This document shows, piece after piece, positions 1 to 33,304 of a stretch of DNA of 64,000 bases. The position numbers and the translations under genes are program-made. The notes below the pieces were generated by a model. The model was not told the DNA's origin. It ran no database searches and worked only from the letters and a program-made list of their open reading frames with translations. The number at the start of each line of letters is the position of its first letter. The stretch's first letter is position 1. The DNA comes from Phymorhynchus buccinoides (lineage: Eukaryota; Mollusca; Gastropoda; Neogastropoda; Raphitomidae), in contig CM065706.1 in the NCBI GenBank assembly GCA_017654935.2, positions 4,854,117 through 4,918,116 of the forward strand, given 5' to 3'.

Positions 1-227
1 CCAAAGTCGCATTTTAGCACCACAGTGATTTAACACCTATGTCACTAAAAGGCATCAAATTGGGGTCTATTATCCAAAGACCCTATTGTCTTAGTTTTGG
101 GAAGTAAGGATAGACCTTATTTTATATATGTCACAGAAGAATCCCCAATACTGCAGATGGATTTTTTTCTCTACCCAGGTAAATTTAATGGACATTTTTG
201 GCTGAAATATGGCTGGCGGTGAAAGGG
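1..227 (+). mobile_element. TTAA-flanked MITE, family A, cut by window edge
   Basis: The right end TGGCGGTGAAAGGG is followed by TTAA at 228-231. Its last 43 bp are tandemly duplicated, with a second end at 270 and TTAA at 271-274. The family has inverted ends CCCTTTCACCGCCA and TTAA duplications, as expected for piggyBac-type elements. Related copies: 13401-13639, 17488-17700, 19299-19665, 34659-34900, 45415-45996. Confidence 0.8.
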
Positions 228-515
228 TTAATGGAAAGCTTTGGCTCAAAGATGGCTGGCAGTGAAAGGGTTAAGTCAGGCGAGACTTATTTTCACCATT
301 ACTGAGGTAACTAAATCCTCTTGTATCCCCCCCCCCCCCCCAAATAAAATCCATGGGATCTCTAACTTACAAAATGTTAGAGTGGGGGTGGGGGTGGGGA
401 GATGGGGTGGGGGTGGGTGGGGCTAATATTTAGCTAACATAACTAAAGTAATCCTAAAAGAACAATGGTAGACCAGAATGAAAGGTAGTTACACATCAGA
501 AAATCTCCAACCAAC

Positions 516-574
516 CTCTGTAAACTTCAGTCCAGTTTCCTCTTCAAACTCCTGATGCAGCTCTTTGTATTTGG
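516..574 (-). CDS. KDM1B: KDM1B exon e11 (59 nt, amine oxidase)
   Basis: With the base carried over from e10 this reads [20 protein letters not shown], matching the family segment after the DFHFNALLD helix. The acceptor is TTTTCTCAG and the donor is GAG|GTTGGT. Phase 0 on leaving. It is the last exon seen; the catalytic C-terminus should continue beyond base 1. Confidence 0.85.
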
Positions 575-2156
575 CTGAGAAAACACATACATTTTTTTGG
601 TCTGAATCACTTTTAGTGGAAGGACGTTAAATTGAGCAACAACAACACACACACACACACACAACGATATGGTTAAACATGCCTAATACTTCCAAGATTA
701 AAAACAGGTTACCGTAAAAACTGGACTATAAGCCGCACCTGTATATAAGCCGCATCCCTTAAATTGACAAAATATTAGGTATTTATTCACATATAAGCCG
801 CACCAGTTTATAAGCCACAGAGAAAATTGTATGTGCACAAAGCAACACAAATATAGAAATGATCCTATCAGAACATGAGTATTTAAAGTTCTCAGACAGG
901 TACTCAGACACTTTCAACATGAGATTTGAATCTATTGATTACTAAAACCAGTTTTGAGTCTAAAGAAGCTCAAAATAGGCTGAAGAATGTGGCCAGAAAC
1001 AGATTTAATCATACTGATAAATGTAGAATGGAGAAAAAAAATCCACAGATAAGCTGCATCAGTCTATAAGCCGCATGGGCCAAAGTTAAGGGGAAAAGTA
1101 GCGGCTTATACTGACACAAGGCATGTAACAGACTGTCGACATGAAAGTCCATGTGGCAACAAGACAATACCAAAATACTACAGACAAACCCCCATTCTAC
1201 GACCCTCTGTTAAGCGACCACCTCTCATTTGAGACCGGATTTGTTGGCACGGATGCATTTTACTATGTAAATGACCTCTCTTAAACGACTTCCTCTAAAA
1301 CGCGACTTACGACCGCCATTTTGTTGGTTTTTACGACCGTTGTTGTCATCTGCATAGACTTCGAGCAAAGGGAAACAACCATGGTCAAGGGCCTGAAAGC
1401 GGAGTCGCTTCCCTTGTTGTAGAAAAGATGGCGGAAAGCGTAGGAAAAGCACGAAAACCACTGACTTTGAACAAGAAAACCACTGACTTTGGACGAGAGT
1501 GGAGGTGATTAACAGAAGTCGGCGAAGTGAAACTGTAATACATCGATTGCACAATCCTATGGAGTTGGAAAGACCCAAATCCAGTTTTAATATGTCATTG
1601 TATGTGTGCATGAAGAAGAGAGTATGAACTGTGCTGAACTTTTTCTTTCTACGGCTGCCAGTGAAAACCTCCGTCATACAACCCCTCCAATTTACGACCG
1701 ATTTTTCCGGACATTTTGGAAGTCTTAAAATAGAGGTTTGTCTGTATATGCCATACTTTACTGCACTATATGATGCAAGCTTACACTTATCTATATCTCA
1801 GCACACACAAAAAACCCCAATACCAAACCAGTACCTAACAAACCGACGTCCTGCTTCAAGCCCACTCTGTGCTAACACAAAGCGTTTCACAGAACGATGA
1901 AATAAAAGTCTATTTGGTGACAACACTATGCAATACAGGATAATGTAATGCAAACACAATATGATACAACACAAGATTAGTAATAATAATAATAATTTCA
2001 CTGACATAGCGCAATAAAAATCATGCTAAAAGCAAGCTCTCAGCGCTTTACAAACATTGATGAAACCATATAAAAATATAAATAAAAAATTAACACATTG
2101 ACACACCATGTTTCATAACAATGATATAGAATAATAGGAACATTATTTAATAACAC

Positions 2157-2238
<82 letters not shown>

Positions 2239-4482
2239 CAGAGAGGAGGTGGAGGGGTCAGGGTTAGGGGGAGGGGTCAGGGTTAGAGTTAGACAGACAA
2301 AAAGGCGGAGACAAGTGGGCAGGGCAAACTTTGACAGGAGTAAGACGGAGAGGCAGAGAGAAAGAGAGAGAGAGGGGGCAGGAGGGAGCGGAAGGGAGAG
2401 AGAGAGAGACAGAGGGGAAGGGGGGGGAGAGGAAGAGAGAGAGAGGACAGGTAGACAGAGCGCAAGGAAACCAAGAGAAGATAATCACGTAATAGTACCT
2501 AACAAACTGACGTCCTGCTTCAAGCCCACTCTGCGCTGACACATGACGTCCAACAGAGCGTTGAAGTGAAAGTCCATGCGTGCCGCTGTCGCAGGGTCCA
2601 CCGAGTTGTCCCCCCTGATGCCGCCATTCGGCTGCAGCAGCTGGCAACGCTCCCGCACTTTGTGCACTGATGCCCCCATCTAGGGGAAAGAATAAAAAAT
2701 TAAAAAATTGAGAGAATCAAAACGGGTAAAGCGAAACTGAAGGGACTGAAATTTTCATTTACGCACAGAGTACGTACCGTACGAGTTCATGCGTTGGCTG
2801 GGTGAGTGTGTACCCCCCCCCCCCCCTCCCCTTTAAAATCGTAGAGATTGTAAAGAAGTCGCGTCATGATTGCGTCATTTAAAACATTGTAAAGGAACCA
2901 ATGAAAAGTCGAGAAATCATTCACTCCTGCCCGATGATTTCGGTTTGTGCAGACGACGAAGGAAGGAATTCCCGCAGCGATCGGTAAAACGTGCGGGCAG
3001 TTCTGCAAATATGCGGGCGTCGGCCCGCGCTTAAACCCGATTATTGCGTGAATGAACAGATTTTTGGGGGGACTGTACCAATCCCGCACCCTAGAATCAG
3101 CTTTGCATTAATAACAATCATCAATCAATCACCAATATTATTCAATACCCCCCCCCCCCGTGGGGATACAGGGGGGTCTTTTGTATAAATAGTTCCCGCA
3201 CCTTCTGGAAGTTCTTGTGGTGGTACTATAGCTAATGAGGTTTAACCGAGGCGTGGTTACTGCTACACATATCTGTATTATTAAAAATTCGGGACTTTAC
3301 TGGTTTAGCACTGCCTCCAGGCATTGCCTCCAGTATTGTTCCCACCATCTTTGTATTTACAAATGCCCCACATGACCGAAAGGCCGAAGAGGGCGTAAAA
3401 CCCTATTTTCACTGGAAGTTCTGTGCTTGTAATTTCCTCTAATCTGTCACTCTCTTTGACTCCGCCTTTTCCCTTTGCTTACTGTCATCTACTATCTTTC
3501 TGCGTTACCGCTCCATTCTCCTAGCCTTTTTTTCACGAAACACTTTCAAAAAGATTTCCTCCAGCCGAAGTCGGACTTGCTGGGCCTAACTATTTCTTAG
3601 TTAGGCAGCATAACGGCAGCATGACGCATCTGCGCTCATAATTGACAGGAAACTGTCTGAGCGATCGAAGAAGAAGAATCCAATACCAACCTGGTATGCC
3701 ATCAGGGCCAAAGGGTTGTTGACGGCGTCGGCCATCAGCTGAGCTCCGCGGGAGACGCACACCCCTCCCTCCTGCTCCCCCACTTCGTCCCACACCCTGC
3801 CTCCGACACGACGCTTGCTCTCCAGAATTTTCACCTGAAAACCCCCCCCACCAAAAGCAAAGGTTAACTCATTCTCATACCAACGATTTTGAATGATTAA
3901 AAAACACTCACAAATCACTCAACATACACACAAACAAAACAGACATACACAAAAAGAGAAACGAAGAAAAGAAGATTACAGTATTTTTTTAACTTTTTAG
4001 ACATATGGAAAGGGTAGATCAGACTTTTATATATATATATATTGACTTTATATAGAAAAACTCCCTACAGCAATTACATTTCTGCCTTTTTTTTCCCAAA
4101 CAATCTTCCCAATTTCCTCCTTTGAGCTCCTCCGAAATTAGAATGTGTTGGCTGCGTGCAGCAGGGAGACCAGTGAAAACTGAAAACTGGACACATACAT
4201 ACCTTACACATTATCAGATTATGGCCTGGGAACCAATCAATCAATCAATCAAAATATTTATTGTCTTTAAAACATAAAGAAATTCTTTGTCTGGCATGCA
4301 CATAAAACACATATACAAATAGAGACAATAAGACAATATACAGTAAATACATCATAAGAAATAAATTACAATACAATATAACACACACACACACACAACA
4401 CACACCACCCTCACACCACACATCCCTCCCCTTCCCCACAACATATTTTTCAAAAACTCCACCCTCAACCATGCCTTTCCCC

Positions 4483-4525
<43 letters not shown>

Positions 4526-5708
4526 TACATACATACACACACAACACAGAAGAAGAAGAAGAATTCAGTTCCCAACATGACCAAAAAGGCATAATGCACT
4601 AATAAATCACTTTCAATGCTGTTCGAAAGAAAAGATTGCACCCCCCCCCCCCCCCCCCCCCCCCAAAAAAAAGAAGAAAACTTCTGCCTCAGGAAAGAAA
4701 TCCTCTATCAGAATTCTTCATCCTCTGAAATTTGTATTTTCCTCTGACAGTTCTGATGCCTGCACACGATACACACATATTGCGCGTGCGTGCACACACA
4801 CACACATGCGCATGCACACACACACACATACAACTCAATCAGCATTTGAAATGCTCACCTTGAGTCCAAAGTCTTTCAGGCGTCGAGCAGCTGCAACACC
4901 ACTAGCGCCCGCCCCAACGACTAGAACATCACACTGCAACAGACATTTCAACCTGCTAGAGAACTGTATCGTCCTTGCTACACCGCTCAAATAGGGTGTG
5001 GGTAGGTGGAACAACAACTAAAGTCACCTACCGTATTTTCCCGACTATAAGGCGAAACTTTTTTTCCTAGACTGAGACCCCTGCGCCTTATGTGCCTCTG
5101 TGACTACAAAGTACCTAATCAAGTCAAGTCAAGTCAAGTCAAGTATACTTTATTATCTCAACAGAGAAATTACATTCAGGTGCAACATCAAATCATTTTA
5201 AAAACATATCACAAAACAATCGCAGAAAGCACGATAACATTAAGACACATGGGATTAAATTAGGAACATATTTAAAGCAATCAACAACACAATCAACAGA
5301 AGCATAATAACATACGCCTAATATTAAGATAGTAACATTAAGATACATGGGATCAGATTATGAGCATTCAAACCAAGACTACAATTATCAACCAAGACCA
5401 CCATTTCACAGAGTATCGCTGCACATCATGAATAAATTACCGTATACATCTCTTTAAAATGGGATTACATTAGAAGCATTCAAGTTAAGATCACTGTATC
5501 ACAAATATTACAAATCGTGAATAATTAATTATACATGTATCTCTTTAAGAAAGCATGGCAAATCAGTATATTCACATATTATAGGCCTACATTTTATAAG
5601 TATTGCATGAAAACACACACACACACACACACATACACACACACACACACACACTCCTACCCCATCCCTCATCACCCGCTTACACACGCACACCGGCTCA
5701 CACACAAA

Positions 5709-5764
<56 letters not shown>

Positions 5765-8700
5765 TATATATATATATACACACATGCACAACCACTGGAA
5801 AAATGGATGGACTGAACAAAGATTCAGGAATTCAAAAGGTGGATGGACTGCGGAACAAATGATTTTTGTGCTCTCGTTTTGAGCTTGAGGGTTCTGAATC
5901 TGCGCCCTGAAGGCAACAGCTGATAGTACTGAGCTAGGACATGACTATCATCATTCACAATCTAATACAGACAAACCCCTATTTTACGACCCTCTGTTAA
6001 GCGACCACCTCTCATTTGAGACCGGATTTGTTGGCACAGATGCATTTTACTATGTAAACGACCTCTCTTAAACGACTTCCTCTAAAACGCAACTTACGAC
6101 CGCCATTTTGTTGGTTTTTACGACCGTTGCTGTCGTCTGCATAGATTTCGAGCAAAGGGAAACAACCATGATCAAGGGCCTGAAAGTGGAGTCGCTTCCC
6201 TTGTTGTAGAAAAGATGGCGGAGAGCGTAGGAAAAGCACGAAAACCACTGACTTTGAAAAAGAAAACCACTGACTTTGGACGAGAGTGGAGGTGATTAAA
6301 AGAAGTCGGCAAAGTAAAACTGTAATATCGATTACACAATCCTATGGAGTTGGAAAGACCCAAATCCAGTTTTAATATGTCATTGTATGTGTGCATGAAG
6401 AAGAGAGTATGAACTGTGCTGAACTTTTTCTTTCTACGGCTGCCAGTGAAAACCTCCGTCATACGACCCCTCCAATTTACGACCGATTTTTCCGGACATT
6501 TTGGAAGTCTTAAAATAGAGGTTTGTCTGTATTGTGGACATTTGGGAAGTCTTAAAATAGAGGTTTGTCTGTATTGTGAACATTTTGGAAGTCTTAAAAT
6601 AGAGGTTTGTCTGTATTGTGAACATTTTGGAAGTCTTAAAATAGAGGTTTGTCTGTATTGTGAACATTTTGGAAGTCTTAAAATAGAGGTTTGTCTGTAT
6701 TGTGGACATTTTGGAAGTCTTAAAATAGAGGTTTGTCTGTATTGTGAACATTTTGGAAGTCTTAAAATAGAGGTTTGTCTGTATTGTGGACATTTTGGAA
6801 GTCTTCAAAATAGAGGTTTGTCTGTATTGTGAACATTTTGGAAGTCTTAAAATAGAGGTTTGTCTGTATTGTGGACATTTTGGAAGTCTTCAAAATAGAG
6901 GTTTGTCTGTACCTAATAATACTGGCAATTGTTTAGTCCTTATCCCTAAGTAATCTCTGTAAGGAGAAAACAAGACAGTGTCTTTACCTGTGCGGGGGAG
7001 TGGAGGTGAAGGGAGGGAGGCGGGGAGACCAGACCGACGTTGATGTAGTTGGCGGCGGTGAGGAAGGCGAGCACTTCGTCCATCAGAAACATGCAGCATG
7101 CACGATTCAACCCCCGGCAGATCAGACGACGCTCGCAGTGCTCGCGACTCAGCCACTCCTGAAACAAAGAGGAAAGGTCAAGAATTAAAATTCTGACAAT
7201 CATATATCCTTCATACAGTTTTATTGTCTGTTCCCCCACCCCTCCCCCCCACTCCCCCTGTGGGGAAACCGGGGGGTCTTTAGTACAACTAGTTCCCCTA
7301 CCTTCTGGAAGTTCTGTGCTTGTAACTTCCTCTAATCTGTCACTCTCTTTCACTCTTGCCTTTTCCCTTTGCTTTCTATCATCTACTATCTTTCTGCCTT
7401 ACTGGTCCATTCTCCTGCCTTTTTTCTAGAAACACTTGCAATATTGCAACACTACAAGAATCTTGCTCATTTAATTTTTTTTTATTCTTTTGTGAATGAA
7501 TAACTGCATATTATTATCTCTAATATAATACGCTAAGGCCCAAAGTGTACAAGAACGTAAAAACTCGGATACCGCGTAAATGTCAGACTGTTGCTGGCCA
7601 TACAGTTCCAGAAGAACGCGTTGGGACGCGATTCCGCGATGTCTGGTTCAAAATTTTGCTTTTGAAAGTTGATTTTGAAGGCAAAATGCATGAAATTTCT
7701 TTGACATTTTGTGTCGTCTGCGTCGCCCGAGCTGTGTCGGAAACTGCCGAATCTACCTTGGAAAACATGAAGAATGCCGAACCTGTGTTTCATAACCCCC
7801 CTCTCTCTCTCTCTCTCTGTCTCAGTCTATCTGAGAATGAGTATCTGTCTCCCCTTCTCGCTCTCGCACAACGACAACAGTGCTAATAAAGTTTGTCACT
7901 AAGTCACGCAAAATTTGCTCAAATCAATACATTGCTTCCAGTATTGCATCTTTATTCTTTAGTATGTAGTAAGGGGAACTCTCTTACATTCACAGACAGC
8001 ATGTTCTATCAATGAAAGATTGAATAAATTATCTTTGCATTTCATAAATTTTATTTCTGGACCGTGCTATCTAGTAGTATTTTATTTCTGTGCTTACGAT
8101 ATTAAACGAGCACAGAATCTAACACAATTCAAAAACCTCCTCGATAAATACACCAACATCTCAAAACTGCAATATGAGCATGACTAAAAGGCAGATTTGC
8201 CCCAAACAAAATATAAAAACCTCTCAACTGTGTGCAAAAGTTCAAACAAAAATGAAAGGACAGTGAAGAGGCCCGCGAGGCCTAATGTCCTAACTACCCA
8301 GACCTGTTTACCCCCTACACAAGTCTTGAGAAGTCTGGATAGTTGAAATGAGTAGTTTGGGTGCAAAATGTGTAGTCCTATTCATTAACCCTCTCACGGC
8401 TGCATACGCCAGATCCGACCGATTTTGTCTTTACCATTGGCTCCCGTAGCCCCCGATTGCGCCCGCTGAACGCCCGGTCTAGTAGTTTCACTTTCACTTT
8501 TGCCCTACCCACAATGCAATATACTAAGTTAGTTCTTCCTGTTCCTGACTCTCAGTGGTCCGTTTTTGGTTCTTACAGCAAGGGAAAGGACCCACTAGTC
8601 TTTTTGAACGGATTTTTCGAAGTGACCCCAAATTGTTTTCTTCTTTCCACGTGACGTGCGCAGTATTGACTCGGCGCGATGCTCGGAGCGCCATTACGGA

Positions 8701-11700
8701 TTTTTTAATTCCAATTCATGGTTTGTTGTGTGACAGTGTGTTAGCTTTGGAATGAAAATATCATCATTGCTATTCAATATGCATCTTTCAGAAATTAAAT
8801 GTGAGTTAAGACTTTATTCTGGGTGATTTTTTTTAAATAAAAGATTTGGTGTGACGTTCGGAGTTACTTCCCATCACTTGGTATTCAATATAGATTATCG
8901 GTTCGATTGATCAGAGTGAGAGGGTTAAACCATCAAACAATGTTCACTGAAAATGAGTAAATAGAGCATTATTTTCAATTTGAAAGTAGTAGTAGAGGTC
9001 CAAATTGAGTAGAATACTACTCGAAAAGAGTAGAGTAAACAGGTCTGACTACCTGACCTGACCTGACCTTAGCATTCTGCGCCCACAAAGCCATGACCAG
9101 GTTTCGAATCGCCAGGTACATGTAAGGCTGATGCTCGGCCACGAGAGGAAAGGCGTTGATTTCGTCGGCCCCCATCATGTCTGGCATGACGCTGCAGGCC
9201 AGCCTGGCCCCCTCCGACAGCACGAAGGGGCTGAGGTACTCAGTGCATGGGAAAACTGAAACAACACACACATACAAAAATCAATCTTCAACTACAGTAG
9301 AAAGGGGGGTTGCGTACTCCTTAACCCTGCGAGACCCGCAAGACATTTGAACCTCCAAAAAACGTTCGTTGTCTGGTTCGCGTAACGCCCGATCGCGCCC
9401 GCTGAACAGCAGGTCTAGTAGTTTCACTTTCACTTTTGCCCTACCCAGAATGCAATGTACTAAGTTAGTGCTTCCTTTACCTGAGTCTCACTGATCCGTT
9501 TCCGGCTTTTACAGCAAGGGAAAGCACCCACTAGTCTTTTTGAACGGATTTTTCAAAGTGACACAATTTTTTTCTCTTCTTTCCACGTGACGTGCGCAGT
9601 ATTGACTCGGCGCGATGCTCGGAGTGCCATGATGGATTTGTTCCCCAATTCATGGTTTGTTGTGTGACAGTGTGTTAGCTTTCGAATGCAAATATCATCA
9701 TTGCTATTCAAAATGCATCTTTCAGAAATGAAATGCGAGTTAGACTTTATTCTGGGTGATTTTTTTTTAATGAAAAGATTTGGTGTACGTTCGGAGTTAA
9801 TTCCCTTCTCTCTGGGGACTGGGATCGATTCTCGGTTCGAATGGTTGGGAGTCATTGGGTTAAAATGACGTGATTCTCTACAATCTGTACTATTTTAAGG
9901 TGGGGTACGTGCGTACCTCACCAACGCGCAGACCCGTTTCTACTCTGTATCCCAGACAAACAAAGTCTCAATATAAAATGATTATAATAATGTTGTTGTT
10001 GTTGTCTTACCCTGGCTTAAAGACTCCAGGGATCATCCCAACAGCCGAAGAACTTGAACACTATGGTACAAGTGCACCAGCCAGGTATGAGAACATTACG
10101 TGTGTGACCGGTTTTTTGATTACCCCGCCACGTGGGCAGCCACACTCCAACTTCGGAGGAGATTATAATAATGATAAGTCTATTTAGCAACAAATGACAG
10201 TACTACAGTGGATCCACTGTGGTATTGAAGGCAATGAGCAGGCTGACAGAATGGCAAAGCTGGGTGCAAAAGACGAGCAACAGAACAACCCTGTCTGCCT
10301 CACAGAGATGAAGACCATCATCGAGTCTCTGCACAGGACGCCCCAGAAACAGGACAGCTACCACCTGCTACCCAGATCACAGCAGGTGGTCATCTTCTGC
10401 CCGAGGACAGGGCACAACAGACTGAACCAGCATCTGTTCAGGAAGATGCATGCTGTGCCGTCCCCCATGTGTCCCTGCGGAGAAGCAGAGCAGGACACGG
10501 CCCACATCCTGCAGGACTGTGGGAGCCGCCGGCCGCTGAGGGAGGAGATCTGGCCAACACCGGAGCCCCTCCAAGACAAGCTGCACGGGTCTGTGGACAC
10601 CCTGCAGAGGACCGCCAATTTCGTCTCAAGATCTGGACTCCAAAAGTGATCGGCGATCGACAAACAAAACAAAACAGCTGTTATGATGAACGCACCCGTG
10701 GGCTTGCTTTTCCTGACGTGCAGGATGGGGTCTGTGGGGCTATGGCCTACTCCATCGGGGTAGTAGCCCAGCAGCATCAGGGCCGCGGGGGAATCCTTCA
10801 GATACGGGGGCACCGTCGTCTGCTTCAACCAGATTGTCTCCTCTACGTAGGCCACACGCTGCAAGGGCAAAACAACAGAAAACATGTTTTTAACCCTTTT
10901 GAACCAACATCAGAGCAGCCGGAGAATCCTTTCGTTACTGTCGTCTGCTTCAACCAGATTGTCTCCTCTACGTAGGCCACACGCTGCAAGGGCAAAACAA
11001 CAGAAAACATGTTTTTAACCCTTTTGAACCAACATCAGAGCAGCAGGAGAATCCTTTCGATACCGTTGTCTGCTTCAACCAAATTGTTTCCTCTACGTAG
11101 GCCACACGCTGCAAGGGCAAAACAACGTAATTTTTTTTTTTAACCTTTTTGAACCAACATCAGAGCAGCAGGAGAATCCTTTCGATACTGTCGTCTGCTT
11201 TTATAGCCAGATTGTCTCTTCAACATAAGCCACCCTCTGCAAGAATCAAAAGCATGGACATTTTTAAAAAAAGTACTAAAAATATTTGTAGCACTCTCAG
11301 CAAAAATTGCAGTTAATTTCAAACATGCTACGTACAAAATTATGGCTTTGAGATACCACTGTCGCTTGCTTCAGCCAGAATGCTTCTTCAACATAGGCCA
11401 TACTCTGCAAGAGCAAAACAATGGAAAGCATCTTAAACCTTTGCACCAACATCAGGACAGCCAAGGAATCCTTCAGATATGGGGGGCACCGTTGTCTGCT
11501 TCAGCCAGATTGTTTCCTCTATGTAGGCCACTCTCTGCAGGAATTAACAACACAGAAAAAGACTGCGAAAAAGTAGAACATGTTTAAATCAACAACAGCC
11601 TGCATTGAGCATACGTGTACGATATGCATTTATGATTTGTACTTTGTAGGTAGGTTTGTTTCAGCCAGATTGTCTCTTCAACATAAGCCACTTGTTGCAA

Positions 11701-14700
11701 GAATGAAAAAATACAACAATAAAAAACCCACAAAATAAAAAAGTGCAGAAAATATCTGAAGCAACTCTCAGCAAAAATTGCTGTTCATTTCAAACATGCT
11801 ACATACAACATTATGGCGTTGAGATAAGAGGGCACCGTTGCTTGCTTCAGCCAGATTGTTTCTTCAACATACGCCAGTCTCTGCAAGAACGAAAAGCATA
11901 GAAAAAGACTAAAAAAAAATGGAGAATGCTTGAAGAAATTCTACTCTTTGCGAAAAGTGCTACAGCTCACTTTTAACAAGCCAAACAAAATTCATGGCTT
12001 TGAGTTAGGGCTGGGGATGGCGGTGGGGAATGGTACCGTCTTCTGTTACAGCCGCATAGTTTCTTCAACATTGGCCACTCTCTGCAAGAATGAGAAGCAG
12101 AGAAAGACTCTGAAAAATGGAAAATGTTTGAAACAACTCTACTTTCACCAAAACGGGTACAGCTCAGTTTGAACACGCCATGCGCCACACAAACTTATGA
12201 TTTGAGTTGGTGAGTGAGTGGGTGGGGTTGGGCGTAATAGCATTGCAGTCTGCTTTAGCCAAATTACCTCTTCAATGTAAGCCACTCTCTGAAAGAATGA
12301 AAACATAAAAAAAAAGCAGAAAAAGTTAAAAAAACCAGAACAAGTTTATGGTCTACTTAAAATATATTGATTCTTCTTTGAGCGCCCAACTTGAATAAAA
12401 ATGAAAAACATAACAGAGCAAAAAGCAGAAAACATTAGAAGGAATTTGCGTACTAGGTTTGCTTTCAGATCAACTGACATACATACAGACACATACACAA
12501 CCCATACCAACAGGCAACATCCACACATAATCTAATAAACAACAAAAATCGTAACCTTACCTCGTCTTCCGGGTTTGAGCAAGCATCCTTTTGATTCAAT
12601 TTCTGGAAAAAAGGGACAAGAAAATCAAAAGTACAGTTAAGTTAACGGAATTGAACAATGGGGGAGAACTCTCTTTTTAATTAACTCCACTCCACCAAAG
12701 TTGATTACGATGCCAATCAACTAGCAATGAGTGGATCAGAGCCAAAGGGAGGCAAACAAAGCATCATTCTCAATAAAGAATGTGCAAAGGTCGTTAAGTT
12801 AGTTATTCTATTATAGTCCCAACAGCTATGGTCATCTCAGGACTGTCACCGCGTATTCAACCACGCATAGCAAAACACAATTCAATGCGATGGCTTGGAG
12901 TCAAAACAGACTATCTTTAGATAGTCCATTGACATATTATTGAACTTATTACGAAAACTAATAACATGTATAAAAAAAGACTGCTGAAATATAAAAAGCA
13001 AAACCACCTTTTTATATTTCTGCAGTCATTCTTTGATACAAGTCATTAATTTTTGTAATAAATCCAATAATATGTCAATAGACTATCTAAAGATAGTCCG
13101 TTTTGACTCCAAGCCATCGACTGTTATTGAATCTTAACAACGTCTCAACAACCTGAAAACATAAAAATACAGTACAATTCGTAACATGACACCTCCATCA
13201 TTGCACCCTATAGTCGATAAATCTAGACAGTGCTGGAAACCTCGAGCCATTCCACTCTACTTATCCGATCCAGTGTACTGTTTGTGTGTGTGTGTGTGTG
13301 CGTGTGCGTGTGTGTGCGTGTGCGTGCGCGTGCGTGTGTGTGCGTGTGCGTGTGTGTGCGTGTGTTCACACCCTGCTTCAAACCACTACCATCATATCTT
13401 CCCTTTCAATGCCAGCCATTTTTCAGCCAAAACGTTCCATTAAACTTACCTGGGTAGAGAAAAGATTTCATCTGCAATATTGGGGATTCCTTTGTGACAT
13501 CCATAAAACAGGGCCTGTTCTTACCTACCAAAATTAAGAACATAAGGTCATTGGATAACAGACCCTCATTTGATGCCTTTTTAGTAACATGGGTGTTAAA
13601 TGATTGTGGTGCAAAGAGGCGACAGTGGCGATGAAAGGGTTAAATCTGTCTTTTTACTTTCACTGTCTCATTTATTCATGACTTCTACTCACACTACCTC
13701 ACCTCAATGGTCAACCTATGGCGATATTTTTCACGCCAGAGGGCAGTCAATGCACTAGGGGCTTATCACGCGATTTTCTTACTTGGGCGTAGTGAGAGAG
13801 AGAGAGTGATGGTAGGACCACTCACTGTCTCTCTCTCTTTCTTTATCCCCAACTAATAATAGAGAGAGGATTAGCCCCACACGAGCGTCATGCCCTCTGG
13901 TGTGAGAAAAATCGCACTAAGTCTCTCATTAACCCTCTCTTTTCATTCTGATATCTATTCAGTTTTTTGTTGTCATCTTGCTTTTAAACTCTGTCTCTCT
14001 CTCCCCACTAACCCCCAGTCTGATGAAAGCTCTACGAGCGGAAAGCTTGCTTCTTCCCTTTTTCTCCCACCTTGATCAGCATCACCCAACCCACAACGAG
14101 TTTCCCCATTCTACCATTTTCTTCCTATCGGATCCAGGTTAAAAATCAAAATATAATATTCTACCTTGATCAGCATCACCTGGTTAGTTTCCCCATTCTA
14201 CCATTTTCGTCCCTATCGGATCCAGGTTAAAAATCAAAATATAATATTCTAAAAAGACTACCATAATTTTCGGACTATAAGGCGATATTTTTTTCTCCAA
14301 TTTTGACCTATGCGCCTAATAAATGAGGGCGCCCTATAGTGAACAAAATCGTGCGAAGAGAGGCAACGATTGCCGTACTCAGTACAGTCTACTGTGAGTC
14401 ACAACATTGAAAGTGTTAACGAGTCGCCGATACGACAAATACTCACGTTAAAATGCTTCTAAATCCCTATTATCATCCGAGATACCGTCCAACAGATGCC
14501 ATAACCATTCATTGGATGTAAAAAAACCATCGCTGTAGAGCTTAAAATGCCATAATCCTACCAGTTTTCGCGAAGAAAGTCCAAACACAACAATCGGAAG
14601 TCGCAAAAACGGAAGTTTCGATTGTTTGAGAAGGGAGCCAACTCTCGTTTACGACAACAATAATGGCGGTCAGTAATCGTTTACAGGACGTGTACGGGCT

Positions 14701-17700
14701 TCAAACTTCGACTTTCTTTCGCGAGGTGTGTATCGCCTTATAAACGAGGGCGCCTTTTACTTTAATTTTTTTCAGATTTTTCTTGAAAATTGCCCTATTC
14801 GCCTTATACACAGCAGCGCCTAATGAGCCGAAAAATACGGTACAAATAACGCCTGTCTGTCGTTTCCGACGATGTCTGCCAGATAGCAGAGGGGGGCAGC
14901 TACTATTCAGGCTGGGCTGGGCTACAATTTGTTTATAGCGGAGATGCCTTGCCCAGGGTGAATCACCGCTCTCGGCCAAAAGGATTTGAGGAAAACTGGT
15001 GTTGAGGAAGGTCCCCAAAGGCCAACGATCCCTAGTGCAAATCCCCCCTACTTTTTGCCTTGGCATGAGGCTGTGTCAGACCAGTTGACATAAGCTAGAA
15101 CGCCAAGGCTACATCAAAATGTTGCTATGCTCTGCATGGTTGTGCGGGGATTGTCTTAAGCCATGACAAGCTCCCAGCATAACATCATCAGTCAAAAATC
15201 CCCCGAAGTCGGAGTGTGGCTGCCCACATGGCGGGGTAATCAAAAAACGGTCACACACACGTAATGTTCTCATCCCTAGCTGGTGCATTTGTACTGAATT
15301 GTTCAAGTGTGTTTTTTTTTTTTTTTCTGGCTGTTGGGATGATCCCTGGAGTCGCTAAGCCAGGGATCAACAACAACACCCTACTTTGAGAGTCATAGTC
15401 TTCCATGAAAGACTAAGCTGTACCATCAGAGGTTCCTCTAGCTTTTATTTTTTATCTGTCCCGGTGACAGATGAGGTCAAACAAATTCCGTCCTGGGACC
15501 TTTTTCCATCCGTTCCCATGGCCTCCCGGCAATATGGTCATAGCGGGTGAGGTATGTATGCGCCCCATTTTTTTCCACTTTTCACCAGTCAGCCGATATA
15601 TGTATTCCAATTTCGGAGAATGTTTCCACCGAACAATCCTCAATACAGTCGAACCTCCCTTATAAGACCTCCCATTATGAGACTCCCTCCCACTTAAAGA
15701 CCTACTTCTCTGAGACATTGTCCTTCTTTGAAAGTACAGTGGAACCTCCCTTATAAGACCTTCAAAAATCATCCAAAATGAGGTCTTATAAGGGAGGGGT
15801 TTTATAAGGGAGGTAATTTTAATACTTACAAAGGACAATGTCTCAGAAAAATAGGTCTTATATGGCAGGGAGTCTAATAATGGGAGGTCTTATAAGAGAG
15901 GTTCCACTGTATTAAAATTACCTCCCTTATAAGACCCTTCTAACCCTTCTAAAGACCTCATTTTGGAGAGATTTTTCAAGGTCTTATAAGGGAGGTTCCA
16001 CTGTAATAATAAAAAAATTAATTAACACTTGTAACCCCAATTAAAATGACGACTCTACTCCCTGTAACCACCAAATTAATGTTGGTAAACTGGGCCCAAA
16101 TTGGGGTACTTTGTTTAAAAAAATATAAAAAAATAACTTCGTGATGGATTGACTTCAAATGTTCAGGGTTTGTGTATAAATGAAGAATGTTTAACTTGCA
16201 ATGTTTTTTTTGTTATGTGATATTTTTGGTTTTTGGATATTGCAGTTTTAACTCCAAAATACATAACGAAGTGGGTGTACGGGGGCGGTTTTAGACGGCT
16301 TGGTAGGAGAAAGTAATGGATGTCATGGGCGGAATCAGGCTATAAGGGGCCTAAAAAGTTAAAAAAATAAAAATCACTCACCTTCATACCAGCTGCGCTC
16401 ATGCCGCACACATACTTGTCGATAAAACTCGGCCTCAGGGCGACGTCTTTGGAGAGCTGACGCCATTTTCGGCAGGTAGGAACGGAGCACTGCACCCAGT
16501 AGGGGACGAGCGTGTCGCACATGAACTTCTTCAGGCTTGTCTCGCTTTTTCCGTAAGTGGCCCATTCTCGCTTCCAGTCTTGGAAAAGTGCGTGGCCGTG
16601 CTTGTGACTGTTGATAATAAGGAATATATACATGTAATAACGATGGCACTGTTGCAACTGCAACTGCAAATAACACCACAAAAGAAACCAGCTGAATCAA
16701 ACTCTAAAACAAAAAACGTTACAAGAATGGTTCTAATATCATTTGAAAGAGAATTGTCTGAAGTTTTTAACTGGATCATTGTCTCTCTCTCTCTCTCTCC
16801 CACACCACACACACACACACACACAGACAGACCTTCTGTAGAAGAACTCAAAGCACTCGTTGCAGAAGTGTTCAGCGGGGGTGATGTGGTACCAACGTGA
16901 CGTCCATTTGCTTCCAGCACACCTGTGAACGGCACACACACACGCACAATGAGCGGTTCTGAGGTTAACAAGCTTGCGGCTAAACTAACACAACTAATAC
17001 TTTACTTTACGTCCATTTGCTTCCAGCGCACCTGTGAACGACACATGTACACGCACGAAAAACACAATGAGCGGTTCTGAGGTTAACAAGCTTGCGGCTA
17101 ATCTAACACAACTAATACTTTACTTTACGTCCATTTGCTTCCAGCGCACCTGTGAACGACACATGTACACGCACGAAAAACACAATGAGCGGTTCTGAGG
17201 TTAACAAGCTTGCGGCTAATCTAACAGTACACAACTAATACTTTACATCCATTTGCTTCCAGTGCACCTGTGAACGAAGCACGTACATGCACGAAAAACA
17301 CAATGAGCGGTTCTGAGGTTAACAAGCTTGCGGCTAATCTAACACAACTAATACTTTACTTTACGTCCATTTGCTTCCAGCGCACCTGTGAACGACACAT
17401 GTACACGCACGAAAAACACAATGAGCGGTTCTCAGGTTAACAAGCTTGCGGCTAAACTAACACAACTAATACTTTACTTTACTTTAACCCTTTCACCGCC
17501 AGCCATTTATTAGCCAAAATTTTCCATTAAACTTACATAACAAAGATTTTGGGAGATTCTATATTTGAAATAAGGCCTATCCTTGCCTCTCAAAAGTAAG
17601 AACCCAAGATCATTGGATAACACACCCTCATTTCAAGACTTTTAATGACATGGGTGTTCAATCACTGTGGTGCAAAAATGCGACATTGGCGGTGAAAGGG

Positions 17701-18186
17701 TTAATACTGGAGACACATACGTGTGTGCGCATAGGGAGAAAGGTGGCAGAGTGGTTAAGACGTTCGCCTGCCAAATGTAATGCGTGACTGCAGCGTGAGT
17801 GACTCGGCTTCGAATCCTGGCCTCCTCGCCCTTTCTTTCTAGTTTGACTGGAAAATCGAACTGAACGTCCAGTCCTTCGGATGGGGACTTAAAGCTAGTC
17901 TGACCCGTGCGCTTTATGGCACGTAAAAATCCCACAGCAGTTGAAAGTCGGTAAGAGCAAGGAGAAATCCCGCTGCCTGGTATGGCCAAATTGATAGCTA
18001 GGTTTTCCAAGTGTGCCCACACACCCTCCTCACCCTGTACCCCCCCCAACACACACACACACACAATATACTCACAGACACGCACAATATATATCTCTCC
18101 ATTTGTGTGTATAATTTCCATTTGTGTGTATATATATATTTTTATTATATATATATTATTTTCAATTTGTGTGTATATATATATAA

Positions 18187-18239
<53 letters not shown>

Positions 18240-18273
18240 GTGTGTGTGTGTGTGTGTGTGTAACAGAGCGAGC

Positions 18274-18324
<51 letters not shown>

Positions 18325-19247
18325 ACAAACACAGAGTTTCTACACTCATAAACACACACACACACAGAGTGGTTACACTCATAAACACACACACAGTTGC
18401 TACACACATCATAAACACACACATACAGATGTACACACACACACACACACACACATTACTGACTGACAAAGGAGAAGAGAACGAACGGAATTTTAAATTT
18501 TACGTCCTCTCGGCCGAAAGGGCGCATATGAGACATCGTTAGTTATGAATATGGGAAAAAGGAGAAGGAGAACACAAGGCTTTATCATTAATATAACCCT
18601 TACCGATCAGACACCCGGGCGAAGCAGATGGGCACACACACACACACACCTTACTGACTGACAAAGGAGAAGAAAGAGTTTAACGCGAGGCTTGATAACC
18701 CTTACCGATCGGACACCCGGGCGAAGCAGATGGGCACACACACACACCTTACTGACTGACAAAGGAGAAGAAAGAGTTTAACGCGAGGCTTGATAACCCT
18801 TACCGATCAGACACCCGTGCGAAGCAGATGGGCACACACACACACCTTACTGACTGACAAAGGAGAAGAAAGAGCTTAACGCGAGGCTTGATAACCCTTA
18901 CCGATCGGACACCCGGGCGACGCAGATGGGCACACACCTTACTGACTGACAAAGGAGAAGAAAGAGTTTAACGCGAGGCTTGATAACCCTTACCGATCAG
19001 ACACCCGGGCGAAGCAGATGGGCACACACACACACACACCTTACTGACTGACAAAGAAGAAGAAAGAGTTTAACGCGAGGCTTGATAACCCTTACCGATC
19101 AGACACCCGTGCGAAGCAGATGGGCACATAGCAGGGACATCCACCCCGCTCGCGAACCGTCGTTTGACGACCACCTTGCCGTCATCGTCGTCATCATCAT
19201 CGCCGTTATTTCTGTACCGTTTGTTCACCTTCACCCCCCGACATGAC
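516..19247 (-). CDS. KDM1B: KDM1B/LSD2-like FAD-dependent histone demethylase, 11 exons seen, 3' end off window
   Basis: Exons on the minus strand translate, in order, to an LSD2-type protein: part of the N-terminal zinc finger ([21 protein letters not shown]), a CW zinc finger (PYWVQC..C..KWRQL), a pre-SWIRM and SWIRM region ([12 protein letters not shown]), the Rossmann dinucleotide motif VVGAGASG, the GGRVWD FAD motif and [12 protein letters not shown] of the amine-oxidase fold. In animals this family demethylates H3K4me1/me2 in the nucleus using FAD and often works with NPAC/GLYR1. The N-terminal zinc finger plus CW domain separate it from LSD1. All junctions are GT-AG and phases agree from e2 to e11; e1 carries a one-base frame problem. 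The remaining catalytic exons must lie left of base 1, and any start-codon exon right of 19247 was not found. The introns carry tandem arrays of partial exon copies and several transposon remnants. Confidence 0.93.
710..1113 (+). mobile_element. TACCGTA...ACTATAAGCCGC element
   Basis: Starts TACCGTAAAAACTGGACTATAA and ends near GCGGCTTATACTG, with inverted GACTATAAGCCG motifs. A distant member of the group at 14259-14842 and 24988-25676. Confidence 0.6.
1181..1744 (+). mobile_element. TA-flanked MITE (pogo/Tigger-like ends), 564 bp
   Basis: Ends CAGACAAACCCCCATTCTA and TAGAGGTTTGTCTG are inverted repeats flanked by TA. A second copy is at 5968-6909. Superfamily inferred from TA target and CAG ends. 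It lies in the KDM1B e10-e11 intron. Confidence 0.8.
2155..2236 (+). repeat. (GA)n microsatellite
   Basis: About 40 GA units, continuing into GA/GGGA-rich text to 2450. KDM1B e10-e11 intron. Confidence 0.95.
2499..2679 (-). CDS. KDM1B: KDM1B exon e10 (amine oxidase)
   Basis: Encodes [15 protein letters not shown] and, further on, [17 protein letters not shown]. The acceptor is CCCCTAG and the donor is TTAG|GTACTA. The exon is 181 nt and leaves one base, which joins e11 to make an Ala codon. Confidence 0.93.
3195..3545 (+). repeat. CTTCTGGAAGTTCTGTGCTT dispersed repeat, rearranged copy
   Basis: Pieces of a family found also at 7228-7440, 22395-22605 (minus), 23605-23745, 49100-49400, 49480-49700 and 50045-50230 (minus). 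Parts: GGGGATAC..GGGGGTCTTTTG, the named 20-mer, CTCTTTGACTCTGCC, CATCTACTATCTTTCTG and, in long copies, GGAGCTCAAAGGAGA ... ATGGCCTGGGAA and GAAGAAG. In this copy other repeat pieces are inserted. Confidence 0.7.
3691..3834 (-). CDS. KDM1B: KDM1B exon e9 (FAD-binding GGRVWD motif)
   Basis: A 48-codon exon that begins with [16 protein letters not shown], the second FAD contact of flavin amine oxidases, and goes on to [20 protein letters not shown]. The acceptor is TTTTCAG and the donor is CAG|GTTGGT. Phase 0. Confidence 0.95.
4228..4330 (-). repeat. CR1-like tail with ATTG repeats, partner at 61490-61572
   Basis: AATCAATCAATCAATC and TTTATTGTCTTTAAAA, with the GCATGCACATAAAAC block. The same text is at 61490-61572 on the other strand, as a LINE 3' end. 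Confidence 0.6.
4859..4933 (-). CDS. KDM1B: KDM1B exon e8 (FAD Rossmann motif)
   Basis: A 25-codon exon carrying [20 protein letters not shown], the GxGxxG dinucleotide-binding loop of the amine-oxidase domain. The acceptor is CTGTTGCAG and the donor is AAG|GTGAGC. Phase 0 at both ends. Confidence 0.95.
5100..5200 (+). repeat. CAAGT-repeat retroelement tail
   Basis: Four TCAAG units then TATACTTTATTATCTC and GAGAAATTACATTCAGG, a common 3'-end sequence of invertebrate retroelements (general knowledge). The following 800 bp to 5968 show only A/T-rich text and the CA tract. Confidence 0.5.
5613..5760 (+). repeat. (CA)n microsatellite, interrupted
   Basis: Two CA blocks split by CTCCTACCCCATCCC; followed by TA repeats. 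KDM1B e7-e8 intron. Confidence 0.95.
5968..6909 (+). mobile_element. TA-flanked MITE, second copy, with expanded right end
   Basis: The same element as 1181-1744, but its last 42 bp, including the right inverted repeat, are tandemly amplified about ten times (6493-6909). TA at 5966-5967 and 6910-6911. In the KDM1B e7-e8 intron. Confidence 0.85.
6493..6909 (+). repeat. 42-bp minisatellite made from a transposon end
   Basis: About ten units of CATTTTGGAAGTCTTAAAAT AGAGGTTTGTCTGTATTGTG (R)A. Each contains the right inverted repeat of the element at 5968. Confidence 0.92.
6988..7158 (-). CDS. KDM1B: KDM1B exon e7 (SWIRM C-terminal part)
   Basis: Encodes [20 protein letters not shown] and on to [14 protein letters not shown]. 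It aligns with the LSD2 segment that follows the SWIRM core and ends in I-N-x-G. The acceptor is TGTTTCAG and the donor is CAG|GTAAAG. The exon is 171 nt and phase 0 at both ends. Confidence 0.92.
7228..7440 (+). repeat. CTTCTGGAAGTTCTGTGCTT dispersed repeat
   Basis: Copy with GGGGAAACCGGGGGGTCTTT and the CTTTGCTTTCTATCATCTAC block. KDM1B e6-e7 intron. Confidence 0.75.
8389..8924 (+). mobile_element. TTAA-flanked element, family B, 536 bp
   Basis: Ends CCCTCTCACGG and GTGAGAGGG with TTAA at 8385-8388 and 8925-8928. About 85 percent similar by eye to the copy at 9325-9859. No transposase reading frame. Confidence 0.82.
9068..9255 (-). CDS. KDM1B: KDM1B exon e6 (SWIRM region)
   Basis: Encodes [18 protein letters not shown] onward through [20 protein letters not shown], the conserved tyrosine-rich helix of LSD2. 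The acceptor is TTGTTTCAG. The donor side is unusual: AAG is followed by three tandem GTCAG pentamers and then GTAG. The first GT keeps the frame with e7. The exon lies between two copies of a TTAA-flanked element. Confidence 0.92.
9325..9859 (+). mobile_element. TTAA-flanked element, family B, 535 bp
   Basis: TTAA at 9321-9324 and 9860-9863. Its body matches 8389-8924 from CGCCCGCTGAAC onward. It lies 70 bp from the 5' end of KDM1B exon e6. Confidence 0.8.
10003..10170 (+). repeat. Short dispersed repeat (GTCTTACCCTGGCTTAAAGA)
   Basis: Matches 15180-15380 in reverse (CCCGAAGTCGGAGTGTGGCT ... GGATGATCCCTGG). Starts with GTT trinucleotides; probably a SINE. Confidence 0.7.
10194..10678 (+). 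pseudogene. Non-LTR retrotransposon 3' fragment (RNase H and terminal Cys motif)
   Basis: An open stretch reads [20 protein letters not shown], the RNase H signature of I/Jockey-type LINEs, then [17 protein letters not shown], the Cys-His motif near the end of such ORF2 proteins. It lacks the reverse transcriptase. The tail is GATCGACAAACAAAACAAAAC. It lies in the KDM1B e5-e6 intron on the opposite strand, ending about 20 bp from e5. Confidence 0.8.
10696..10858 (-). CDS. KDM1B: KDM1B exon e5 (pre-SWIRM segment)
   Basis: Encodes [15 protein letters not shown] then [19 protein letters not shown] and on to KSKPT. The acceptor is GCCCTTGCAG. The donor CACGG|GTGCGT was chosen because it leaves the single base that e6 needs. 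The exon is 163 nt. The first 45 nt plus the acceptor are copied nine more times in the intron between e4 and e5. Confidence 0.92.
10939..12288 (-). repeat. Tandem array of nine partial copies of KDM1B exon e5
   Basis: Nine copies of the e5 acceptor and first 45 nt lie in the e4-e5 intron: 10939-10983, 11064-11108, 11189-11236, 11359-11403, 11490-11534, about 11651-11695, 11836-11880, 12037-12081 and about 12244-12288. Eight keep a TGCAG or TTCAG acceptor; the one at 11695 has TGCAA. Seven are open in frame 0 (variants of [15 protein letters not shown]); those at 11236 and 12081 contain a stop. Most are followed at once by GTA or GTG. Copies nearest e5 are almost identical to it and distant ones diverge, mostly at third codon positions. 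Confidence 0.9.
12561..12602 (-). CDS. KDM1B: KDM1B exon e4 (42 nt linker)
   Basis: A small phase-0 exon encoding [14 protein letters not shown], between the CW domain and the pre-SWIRM segment. It matches the Cys-x-x-Pro-Glu-Asp linker of LSD2. The acceptor is a long pyrimidine run ending TTTTTTCCAG and the donor is GAG|GTAAGG. Confidence 0.85.
12796..13270 (+). repeat. Dispersed repeat (AGTCTGTTATAG family) hosting a fold-back insertion
   Basis: TAGTCCCAACAGCTATGGTC to CTCTACTTATCCGATCCAG. Other copies: 21939-22195 and 48454-48722, partial at 24748-24905. The copy here is interrupted by the 232-bp fold-back at 12888-13119. Confidence 0.75.
12888..13119. mobile_element. Fold-back element with about 110-bp inverted arms
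   Basis: CGATGGCTTGGAGTCAAAAC at one end, and GTTTTGACTCCAAGCCATCG in inverse at the other. The arms pair almost to the middle. A second copy at 35766-36088 carries an insertion in its left arm. Confidence 0.85.
13401..13639 (-). mobile_element. TTAA MITE, family A
   Basis: Reverse-orientation copy running from CCCTTTCAATGCCAGCC to GGCGATGAAAGGG with TTAA at 13640-13643. The left TTAA is lost. It lies in the KDM1B e3-e4 intron. Confidence 0.8.
13705..13929. mobile_element. 225-bp TIR element, copy 1
   Basis: Inverted GCGATATTTTTCACGCCAGA and TCTGGTGTGAGAAAAATCGC near the ends. Almost identical to 63632-63848. Confidence 0.8.
14259..14842 (+). mobile_element. TIR element, TACC..TTTTCGGACTATAAGGCG family
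   Basis: The left end ACCATAATTTTCGGACTATA and the right end GAGCCGAAAAATACGGTA are inverted. The interior is non-coding with repeated GGCGCC. Related pieces: 5030-5110, 20158-20697, 24988-25676. Confidence 0.72.
15180..15380 (-). repeat. Short dispersed repeat, inverted copy of 10003-10170
   Basis: Reverse complement of the same 170-190 bp sequence, with an extra poly(T) run. Confidence 0.7.
15646..16003 (+). mobile_element. Tigger-like MITE with a nested copy of its own family
   Basis: The outer element starts CAGTCGAACCTCCCTTATAA and ends GAGGTTCCACTG. An inner copy (15737-15909; CAGTGGAACCTCCCTTATAA to GAGGTTCCACTG) sits at a TA, with TA on both sides. Related copy: 22729-22868. Confidence 0.85.
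16382..16607 (-). CDS. KDM1B: KDM1B exon e3 (CW-type zinc finger)
   Basis: Encodes about 75 residues including [20 protein letters not shown] and, after a short gap, DKYVCGM: the Trp, Cys, Cys, Trp, Cys pattern of a CW zinc finger. The acceptor is ATCAACAG (split Ser codon with e2) and the donor is AAG|GTGAGT, ending in phase 0. Confidence 0.95.
16833..16922 (-). CDS. KDM1B: KDM1B exon e2 (N-terminal zinc finger)
   Basis: Encodes [19 protein letters not shown] followed by [10 protein letters not shown], the second half of the LSD2-specific zinc finger with its His and Cys ligands. The acceptor is TTCACAG and the donor is AAG|GTCTGT. The exon is 90 nt and enters and leaves in phase 2. Its first 21 nt and its acceptor are repeated four times in the upstream intron. 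Confidence 0.92.
17011..17385 (-). repeat. 118-bp tandem repeat carrying the acceptor and first 21 nt of KDM1B exon e2
   Basis: Four units spaced exactly 118 bp carry TTCACAG|GTGCGCTGG (CGTTCACAG in three units, CTTCGTTCACAG in the third) and the next bases of e2 up to TGGAC or TGGAT, then GTAAAG. The candidate 21-nt micro-exons are 17011-17031, 17129-17149, 17247-17267 and 17365-17385. The true exon is at 16922. The array is cut at 17484 by a TTAA-flanked element. Confidence 0.9.
17488..17700 (-). mobile_element. TTAA MITE, family A, intact ends
   Basis: 213 bp, with perfect inverted ends CCCTTTCACCGCCA and TGGCGGTGAAAGGG and TTAA on both sides (17484-17487, 17701-17704). It interrupts the 118-bp e2 repeat array. 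Confidence 0.88.
17740..17995 (+). mobile_element. tRNA-derived SINE
   Basis: The head GTGGCAGAGTGGTTAAGACG (A box) and GGCTTCGAATCCTGG (B box) form a Ser/Leu-type tRNA-like promoter. A central part with CGGATGGGGACTTAAAG and GCACGTAAAAATCCCACAGC follows, similar to conserved SINE cores of molluscs (from general knowledge). Sense strand plus, opposite to KDM1B. Confidence 0.8.
18170..18460 (+). repeat. (TA)n(TG)n and (CA)n blocks facing each other
   Basis: TATATA, a TG run, AACAGAGCGAGCTT, then a CA run, so the two halves are complementary and can form a long hairpin. KDM1B e1-e2 intron. Confidence 0.9.
18604..19035 (-). repeat. About 100-bp tandem repeat carrying the donor end of KDM1B exon e1
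   Basis: Five units downstream of e1 repeat its last 30-odd nt (CCCATCTGCTTCGCCCGGG onward) and its donor CG|GTAAGG, with exon-like ends at 18604, 18706, 18804, 18902 and 18994; the true exon ends at 19096. Each unit also holds a pyrimidine run CTTTCTTCTCCTTTGTCAG and a variable TG run, so each has both an acceptor-like and a donor-like site. A sixth copy lies inside a MITE at 19338. Confidence 0.9.
19096..19247 (-). CDS. KDM1B: KDM1B exon e1 (acidic stretch and start of N-terminal zinc finger)
   Basis: The acceptor is TTCACAG at 19250-19248 and the donor is CG|GTAAGG. One frame stays open through an acidic run (seven Asp) to VDVPAMC. The family signature [10 protein letters not shown], ending with the two bases needed by e2, is read in another frame. 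The exon therefore does not read through in one frame into e2: a single base is missing around 19117-19121 relative to expectation, or splicing here is not understood. Exon identity is well supported; its exact 5' boundary is less certain. Confidence 0.7.
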
Positions 19248-19298
19248 CTGTGAATAACGAAATAACAGCTTCGGTTTCTTTTCTCTGCATTAATTTAA

Positions 19299-19665
19299 CC
19301 CTTTCACCGCCAATATTATAATTAATATAACCCTTACCGATCAGACACCCATGCGAAGCAGATGGGCACACACACCTTACTGACTGACAAAGGAGAAGAA
19401 AGAGTTTAACGAGTTTAACGTCTCTTGTAGTAGTTTGTACCACAATGGTTTAACACCTATGTCACTAAAAAGCATAAAATCAGGGCCTGTTATCTGAAGA
19501 CCCTATTTTCGTAATTTTGGGAGGTAAGGATAGGTCCTAATGTTATACATATGTCACAGAGGAATTCGCAATTATTGCAGTGGGTTTTTTTCTCTAGGTA
19601 AGGATTGGCCAGGTTAAGTTTAATGGTATGTTTTTTTTGCTAAAAAATGGCTGGTGGTGAAAGGG
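19299..19665 (+). mobile_element. TTAA MITE, family A, carrying a displaced exon-e1 repeat unit
   Basis: Left end CCCTTTCACCGCCAA at 19299-19313. The body resumes at about 19438 (ACCACAATGGTTTAACACC) and ends GGTGAAAGGG + TTAA. The 124 bases between them are one unit of the e1 donor array (donor at 19338). Confidence 0.8.
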
Positions 19666-20157
19666 TTAAACCTCTTTTTCTAAACTTTTGTTCTTCTTCT
19701 AAATTTGAAAGGGGTTTTGAAAATCTTAAGTTAAAGAGAACTAAAGCTAGCTTTTGTCAATTTGTGTTCAGAAATCTGTGTTTATGGATACATGTGTCAA
19801 TCTCTCTCTCTCTCTTTGTGAGTCTCTCTCTCTCTCTCTCTCTCTCTCTTTTCTTTCTCTCTCTCTCTCTCTTCTCTCTCTTCTCTCTCTCATCACCGTC
19901 ACGTGATGTGATGTCCCGAGGCCCTGGTCATAGGACATTGACCTATTAAAATTGAAAATGTACTATTGTGTTCTCCCCTGTCAGGACAAATGTTATGTCT
20001 GATTAGATTTTTAACACTGGCACGCTTTGTCATATATATTGATTTCTGCAAGAGTCAGGACATTGTCCTATTGATTTCTCTTGTCTCAGGACAGTTTTGT
20101 CCTATCACATTTCCGACCCTCGGTACATCACTGTCTCAATGTCATTGTCACATGGAT

Positions 20158-33247: not shown

Positions 33248-33304
33248 CTGAAACAGATAGACCAGAAACGTTTAGGTTAAAGGAAACTTCCTATGGAGAG
33301 CTGG

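Follow-up and report, generated by a model that had tools for sequence, protein, structure and literature searches.

A minisatellite-like array across an exon edge of the KDM1B gene in the gastropod Phymorhynchus buccinoides

Introduction

Are copies of the head of an exon, repeated within the intron that precedes it, working spare exons or by-products of DNA duplication? The question is raised by a stretch of 64,000 nt from the gastropod Phymorhynchus buccinoides (CM065706.1:4,854,117-4,918,116; hereafter the window), in which nine copies of the acceptor and following 45 nt of exon e5 of the KDM1B gene lie upstream of e5, all of them within intron 4 (12560-10859, minus strand). The array is very probably a minisatellite that grew across the exon edge, of the type described in amphioxus as "mirages", and its copies look like by-products of the genome's common local DNA duplication, not working spare mini-exons.

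Sequence similarity identifies the gene, which lies on the minus strand, as KDM1B, in agreement with a first-pass annotation of this DNA: a comparison of the e5 peptide with the PDB returns human LSD2 chains (E ~1e-4), and the exons for the CW finger, the SWIRM domain and the amine oxidase were located with human KDM1B as the query. The best 9 of the 120 protein matches listed are all from gastropods, which by itself points to a gastropod and probably a caenogastropod; among the matches listed, that from Pomacea ranks first in similarity (55% over 83% of the query), and Arion and Biomphalaria show 46% identity. The working exon e5 (10696..10858, minus strand) is 163 nt long, is entered in phase 0 and is the master of the array, and the preceding e4 (12561..12602, minus strand) is 42 nt long and ends after the GAG of its GAG/GTAAGG donor. 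A side observation on the same gene is that the 3' edge of an amine-oxidase exon (near 2530-2679, with the edge at about 2530 in the window) also has nearby copies, the best of them 83% identical over 84 nt.

Copies of the e5 edge in intron 4

A search of the 2.12-Gb assembly found a further KDM1B e5 about 95 kb away (locus B, as opposed to locus A in the window), where the array contains seven of the nine copies, ordered as in A. The copies of locus A all lie on the minus strand, each starting at the higher of its two coordinates. Two of them are absent from locus B: n2 (10939..10983), the youngest, and n1 (11064..11108), also young and with a 3' flank like that of copy c1. The seven shared copies are c1 (11192..11236), with an in-frame stop in A and one extra base in B; c2 (11360..11404), with four amino-acid differences between A and B; c3 (11490..11534), in which about 87 nt of e5 are present; c4 (11650..11694), which has lost its AG acceptor in A and lacks one base in B; c5 (11836..11880), the putative parent of c2 by block duplication; c6 (12037..12081), with an in-frame stop; and c7 (12244..12288), the farthest, which has no GT after its 45 nt but carries GAG/GTAATT after 21 nt, in phase 0. 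The cores of c3, c5, c6 and c7 are identical in A and B. Unit lengths range from 98 to 207 bp, and the youngest part of the array consists of 125-bp tandem units (10815..11243, minus strand; Tandem Repeats Finder, TRF). Over 87 nt of the e5 edge, the two youngest copies are 99% and 87% identical to e5, and the most diverged copies fall to 60%. A chance origin of the copies is excluded, because they stand in register and the two youngest are so similar to the e5 edge.

This recount upholds much of the first-pass annotation, which had reported nine copies of the e5 edge in a single intron, seven of them open. The stops of the two closed copies lie in c1 (11236) and c6 (12081), and a recount by eye returned the same synonymous changes: c5 and c4 each differ from e5 in ten codons, eight of them synonymous, and c7 in nine, six of them synonymous. 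GTA or GTG follows most copies, as had been stated: seven of nine, among them c1, where it stands after 48 nt.

Splice signals and the 45-nt unit

The first-pass annotation had read each copy as the e5 acceptor plus 45 nt, in phase 0 at both ends, and had proposed that each could act as a cassette. The copies exist, but 45 nt is no natural unit, and as an exon length it is rejected: e5 has 163 nt, and a longer part of it was copied in c3, c5 and c2. In c3, similarity to e5 continues past the first 45 nt, with 81% identity over a further 42 nt, and c5 and the c2 of locus B keep the Val codon and further e5-like sequence. Codon 16 of e5 is itself GTG (Val), and the GTA or GTG that follows codon 15 in the copies is either this Val codon or the product of a deletion; after n1, n2 and c1, the GTA appears, by eye, to come from a deletion in the flank that later spread with that flank. 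The phase 0 exit of the supposed cassettes corresponds to no real donor of e5. Nor does every copy retain the e5 acceptor, as had been claimed, given the missing AG of the 11694 copy.

Splice sites were scored with a frequency table. Past codon 15, all 10 stretches from A and all 8 from B (both e5 included) have either no donor or one that scores -2.0 or less, whereas five real donors of the gene score 1.5 (exon Z, see below), 2.8 (e5), 3.6 (exon Y, see below), 6.4 (e4) and 8.3 (CW). A usable donor of its own, the mark of a cassette exon, was not found for each copy; c7 has one at 21 nt past its acceptor. This GAG/GTAATT, created by sequence change, scores 3.5 and is present in both loci, but a donor as good as this would occur somewhere in ten copies with P ~0.5 by chance.

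These signals bear on the possibility that some copies are working mini-exons, either 45-nt cassettes adding 15 amino acids or, for c7, a 21-nt microexon adding seven (RVAYIEE), so that the stretch linking the CW zinc finger to SWIRM would vary. Such a role could draw on the eight of nine acceptors that are intact in A (scores 4.4-8.8 vs 6.5 for e5), on the c7 donor, which falls within the real range of 1.5-8.3 in both loci, and on the cores of c3, c5 and c7 that are identical in A and B. However, no copy has more than a poor donor after codon 15, c6 is equally unchanged despite its stop, c1, c4 and c6 are broken, and c2 is altered. Moreover, no extra block of more than four amino acids at the e4-e5 junction was found in any of the 104 homologue alignments that span it (from 120 homologues listed of 606 found, many of them predicted proteins, of which 110 align), a comparison of lengths that bears on splicing indirectly; five proteins gave a second weak match (E 0.37-5.4), which we took as chance. 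Together with the arrays at unrelated exons described below, these points make working mini-exons improbable. Under the minisatellite reading, the spliceosome would most likely pass over the copies and splice e4 to the last acceptor.

A second KDM1B locus and the growth of the array

The arrays of loci A and B align throughout, except for a 250-nt stretch of A beside e5 that consists of two 125-bp units (n2 and n1) adjoining the exon. Contig A (4844072-4875434) is flanked by 500-N gaps, and the homology between A and B stops 15 bases before its right end and starts at the first base of contig B (4940935), which falls inside a 46-bp repeat. The CW exon was found only at loci A and B in the genome search. 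The two loci are probably alleles on two haplotypes, as the contig ends resemble an unmerged overlap; alternatively, they could be paralogues. Their arrays differ in copy number at e5 (9 in A vs 7 in B) and at exon Z (4 vs 11), and agree at exon Y (6 vs 6). Separately, about 19 codons are inserted in frame in the CW exon of locus B (L007:4537-4803), and this insert is similar to an open frame at window positions 16018-16212.

A rival explanation is that A is a noisy contig and that its arrays are mis-assembled reads. Contig A does lie between its 500-N gaps with a left end that looks unpolished beside B, showing many indels (L012:2900-4200) and an exon (622-662) that is hardly recognisable there, and exon Y has two extra bases in A. 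Nonetheless, contig B is separate and repeats seven of the nine copies with their order kept and their sequence almost unchanged, and similar arrays stand at unrelated loci on other scaffolds, so that an assembly artefact is scarcely credible.

The comparison of A with B also suggests how a minisatellite could have grown here. In the proposed course of events, one segment that reached from the end of intron 4 into the first part of e5 would have been duplicated in tandem; the copy adjoining the rest of the exon would stay functional, and the copies upstream would become intron and decay. Further growth would proceed by unequal exchange between adjacent cores, adding single units such as n1 and n2. 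Both of these carry the 3' flank of c1 and share a synonymous TTG with the e5 of A, a codon that reads CTG or CTA in the older copies and in the e5 of B; this combination is as expected from unequal exchange between the core of c1 and e5. The alternative that the first-pass annotation had offered to its cassettes, serial duplication from the working exon, is well supported by n1 and n2, which are present only in A and share the TTG of its e5.

In the tree, the A and B versions of each of the seven shared copies group together (support 66-100). A single duplication of a three-unit block is probable among them, in which c5, c4 and the head of e5 would have given rise to c2, c1 and c3, respectively: c2 is like c5 through core and flank, c1 is like c4, and c3 is like e5, and these resemblances suggest one block duplication. 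The event was read by eye and from alignments of stretches; the maximum-likelihood (ML) tree does not recover it, nor does it stand out by alignment score, in part because of overlap between the stretches that were compared. We infer this block duplication, as we do the exchange mechanism, the allelism of A and B and the skipping of the copies in splicing.

Arrays at other exon edges and in other genes

The e5 array is one of three in the same gene. A second array (16945..17482, minus strand) is formed by 118-bp units that span the acceptor and the first 21 nt of zinc-finger exon Z (start 16922), with 4 units in A and 11 in B. A third (18604..19383, minus strand) comprises six cassettes of 44-54 nt, each with an acceptor and the donor of exon Y, one of them upstream and five downstream of Y (about 19247-19096, minus strand, its start read by eye). 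The acceptors of these cassettes score 9.8-10.5, and the real donor of Y 3.6. The cassette length is a multiple of three in two of six cases in A and one of six in B, so that inclusion would usually break the frame. By eye, the two extra bases of exon Y in A relative to B (window ~19150) may be a zinc-finger frameshift or a sequencing error. Farther along the window, an open frame of 2055 amino acids (27104-33271, minus strand) appears by eye to be C2H2 zinc-finger-like and contains internal tandem repeats.

We considered KDM1B as a special target of such arrays and rejected it. Within window positions 1-20000, three of the five tandem arrays with a period of at least 40 touch an exon edge, and random placement gives at least three of five in 26% of cases with array lengths set by us or in 11% with TRF lengths, the exon limits being approximate. 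In 120 trials with 150-nt stretches drawn at random from around the locus, nearby copies turned up 43 times.

Beyond KDM1B, we surveyed the best-scoring 30 of 68 listed myosin matches and 15 of 127 listed kinesin matches, some of which contain stops, and several of the kinesin loci are near-duplicates of each other. Copies that span a boundary, here those that begin in certain intron (beyond an in-frame stop) and continue into the matched exon, stand at 16 of 45 exon loci (myosin 10 of 30, kinesin 6 of 15). Nearby copies occur at 25 of 44 exon edges and in 35 of 82 matched flank stretches (p = 0.14), and for myosin the two proportions are 15 of 29 edges and 27 of 52 flanks. One myosin locus (L044) has a match that starts elsewhere than at base 1501; it was dropped from the count of nearby copies (16/30 becoming 15/29 at shorter range) and kept, without a hit, among the 30 myosin loci of the boundary count; flanks with N were dropped as controls, and the myosin controls stand at 28/54 or, without the L044 flanks, at 27/52. 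The genome is rich in local tandem duplication, exon edges included, and these edges are not clearly favoured over neighbouring sequence. As a separate observation, many kinesin exons are paired with near-equal scores on the same or different scaffolds, which hints at retained haplotigs or large duplications.

The survey and the copy numbers also bear on a regulatory alternative, in which the copies would serve as decoy acceptors or poison exons, so that less KDM1B is spliced productively and the output depends on copy number. The acceptor scores of the copies in A bracket that of e5, and copy number differs between the loci at e5 and at exon Z. Yet arrays also stand at exons of unrelated genes, and those of amphioxus are reported to leave splicing intact (PMC3087553; PMC3902484). 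A decoy or poison function is very unlikely.

Selection on the copies

The lineage of e5 itself is constrained, with an ML omega of ~0 and a parsimony count of nonsynonymous (N) to synonymous (S) changes of N ~3.5 : S 10. The codon differences between A and B in the copies amount to N 5 and S 2 when the first codon of c1 and that of c4 are masked, and A-B differences affect 11 of 314 core vs 18 of 782 non-core positions (p = 0.30), giving no sign of core constraint since the A/B split. For the copy pairs off the path of the master (c5/c2 and c4/c1), a hand count gave N 8 : S 5 or 6, with the Q/R codon of c4/c1 taken as two N and S being 6 if the third difference is counted. These counts fit neutrality (P 0.23 or 0.13) better than constraint at the parsimony-derived proportion (P 0.006 or 0.012). 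In all parsimony and codon-model runs c1 was used without its three extra bases; c1 codons 12-15 (chimeric with e5) and the stop codon of c6 were masked in the codon-model runs, and the first codons of the c1 of B and of c4 were masked in both kinds of run (the c4 of B in parsimony, the single c4 row in the codon model).

Several results weigh against the minisatellite reading. Besides the intact acceptors, the copy branches are rich in synonymous changes (parsimony N ~20 : S ~25, vs ~74% N under neutrality), and neutrality of these branches is rejected at p 2e-6 to 2e-4 over five trees, two of which give p 3e-5 and 8e-5. No significant difference in N:S separates the copies from the e5 lineage (Fisher p 0.15-0.56 in one parsimony analysis and 0.20-0.21 in the other), and in the codon model the omega of the copies is 0.27, below 1 at p 0.001 (block tree) or 0.006 (ladder tree), with deep and recent copy branches separately also below 1 (p 0.013-0.047). 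In addition, for kinesin alone, in which several loci are near-duplicates, nearby copies are found at 10 of 15 edges vs 8 of 30 flanks (p = 0.02). The first-pass annotation had looked to equal N and S off the e5 branches, alongside a lack of RNA-seq junctions, as evidence against its cassettes; the copy-copy pairs off the master path do fit neutrality, whereas the copy branches as a whole do not. The synonymous excess, which with its omega of 0.27 also speaks for working mini-exons, could stem from silent-site saturation, from a wrong tree or from exchange of core segments with the working exon, and some copies may have been used in the past. Our confidence in the minisatellite reading is slightly lowered because two real donors score low and the Fisher comparison does not separate copies from exon. 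On a more speculative and unlikely view, exon edges in this genome would enter tandem arrays so often as to form a standing pool of near-exons; some e5 copies would once have been constrained, and c7, with its strong acceptor and its donor 21 nt on, would be a microexon in use or emerging.

Comparison with known systems

In mutually exclusive tandem exons of the Dscam type, complete exons with both splice sites and open frames are repeated. The KDM1B array shares with these the presence of tandem exon-like copies within one intron, but its copies comprise only the head of the exon and lack a homologous donor, and several of them are dead.

A closer counterpart is provided by the mirages of amphioxus, described in the globins BflGb6 and BflGb9 (PMC3087553) and in PGBD5, where repeats lie over splice sites and for which Adh (Adh3) and troponin C are cited as further cases (PMC3902484). 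The KDM1B array has the structure that defines a mirage, a tandem repeat with a unit that spans an exon-intron boundary. As in the amphioxus cases described in these accounts, the duplicated boundary may be on the acceptor or the donor side, and AG or GT is often kept. Copy number varies between haplotypes in amphioxus (6 vs 3 units in BflGb6; PMC3087553), as it would here if A and B are alleles. The reported units measure 150-160 bp in the globins (PMC3087553) and 60 and 108 bp in PGBD5 (PMC3902484). Several features set the present case apart from what these accounts describe: the host is a gastropod and not a cephalochordate, one gene holds three arrays, boundary copies occur at 16 of the 45 sampled exon loci, and the e5 copies diverge down to 60% identity, whereas BflGb6 units are 81-100% alike (PMC3087553). 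Splicing across the amphioxus arrays was checked by reverse transcription PCR (PMC3087553; PMC3902484).

Tandem duplication of sequence bearing AG/GT has also been put forward as a model of intron gain (PMC3087553). The KDM1B array resembles that model in that duplicated splice signals could become new introns or exons, and departs from it in that the array shows no sign of a new intron or exon having formed.

In the literature that we found, boundary minisatellites were reported from amphioxus only; no mollusc mirage turned up in the search, which was itself incomplete, and we do not claim absence from print. If about one-third of mollusc exons carry boundary minisatellites, as 16 of 45 sampled loci would imply, such arrays would recur in some animal genomes, where they would supply splice-site copies from which exons or introns can arise and would be a trap for gene prediction. 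Loci A and B, which differ by two whole units at e5, offer a concrete case of the copying process. The KDM1B array is apparently of the mirage kind already known from amphioxus, here in a mollusc in which it is apparently common.

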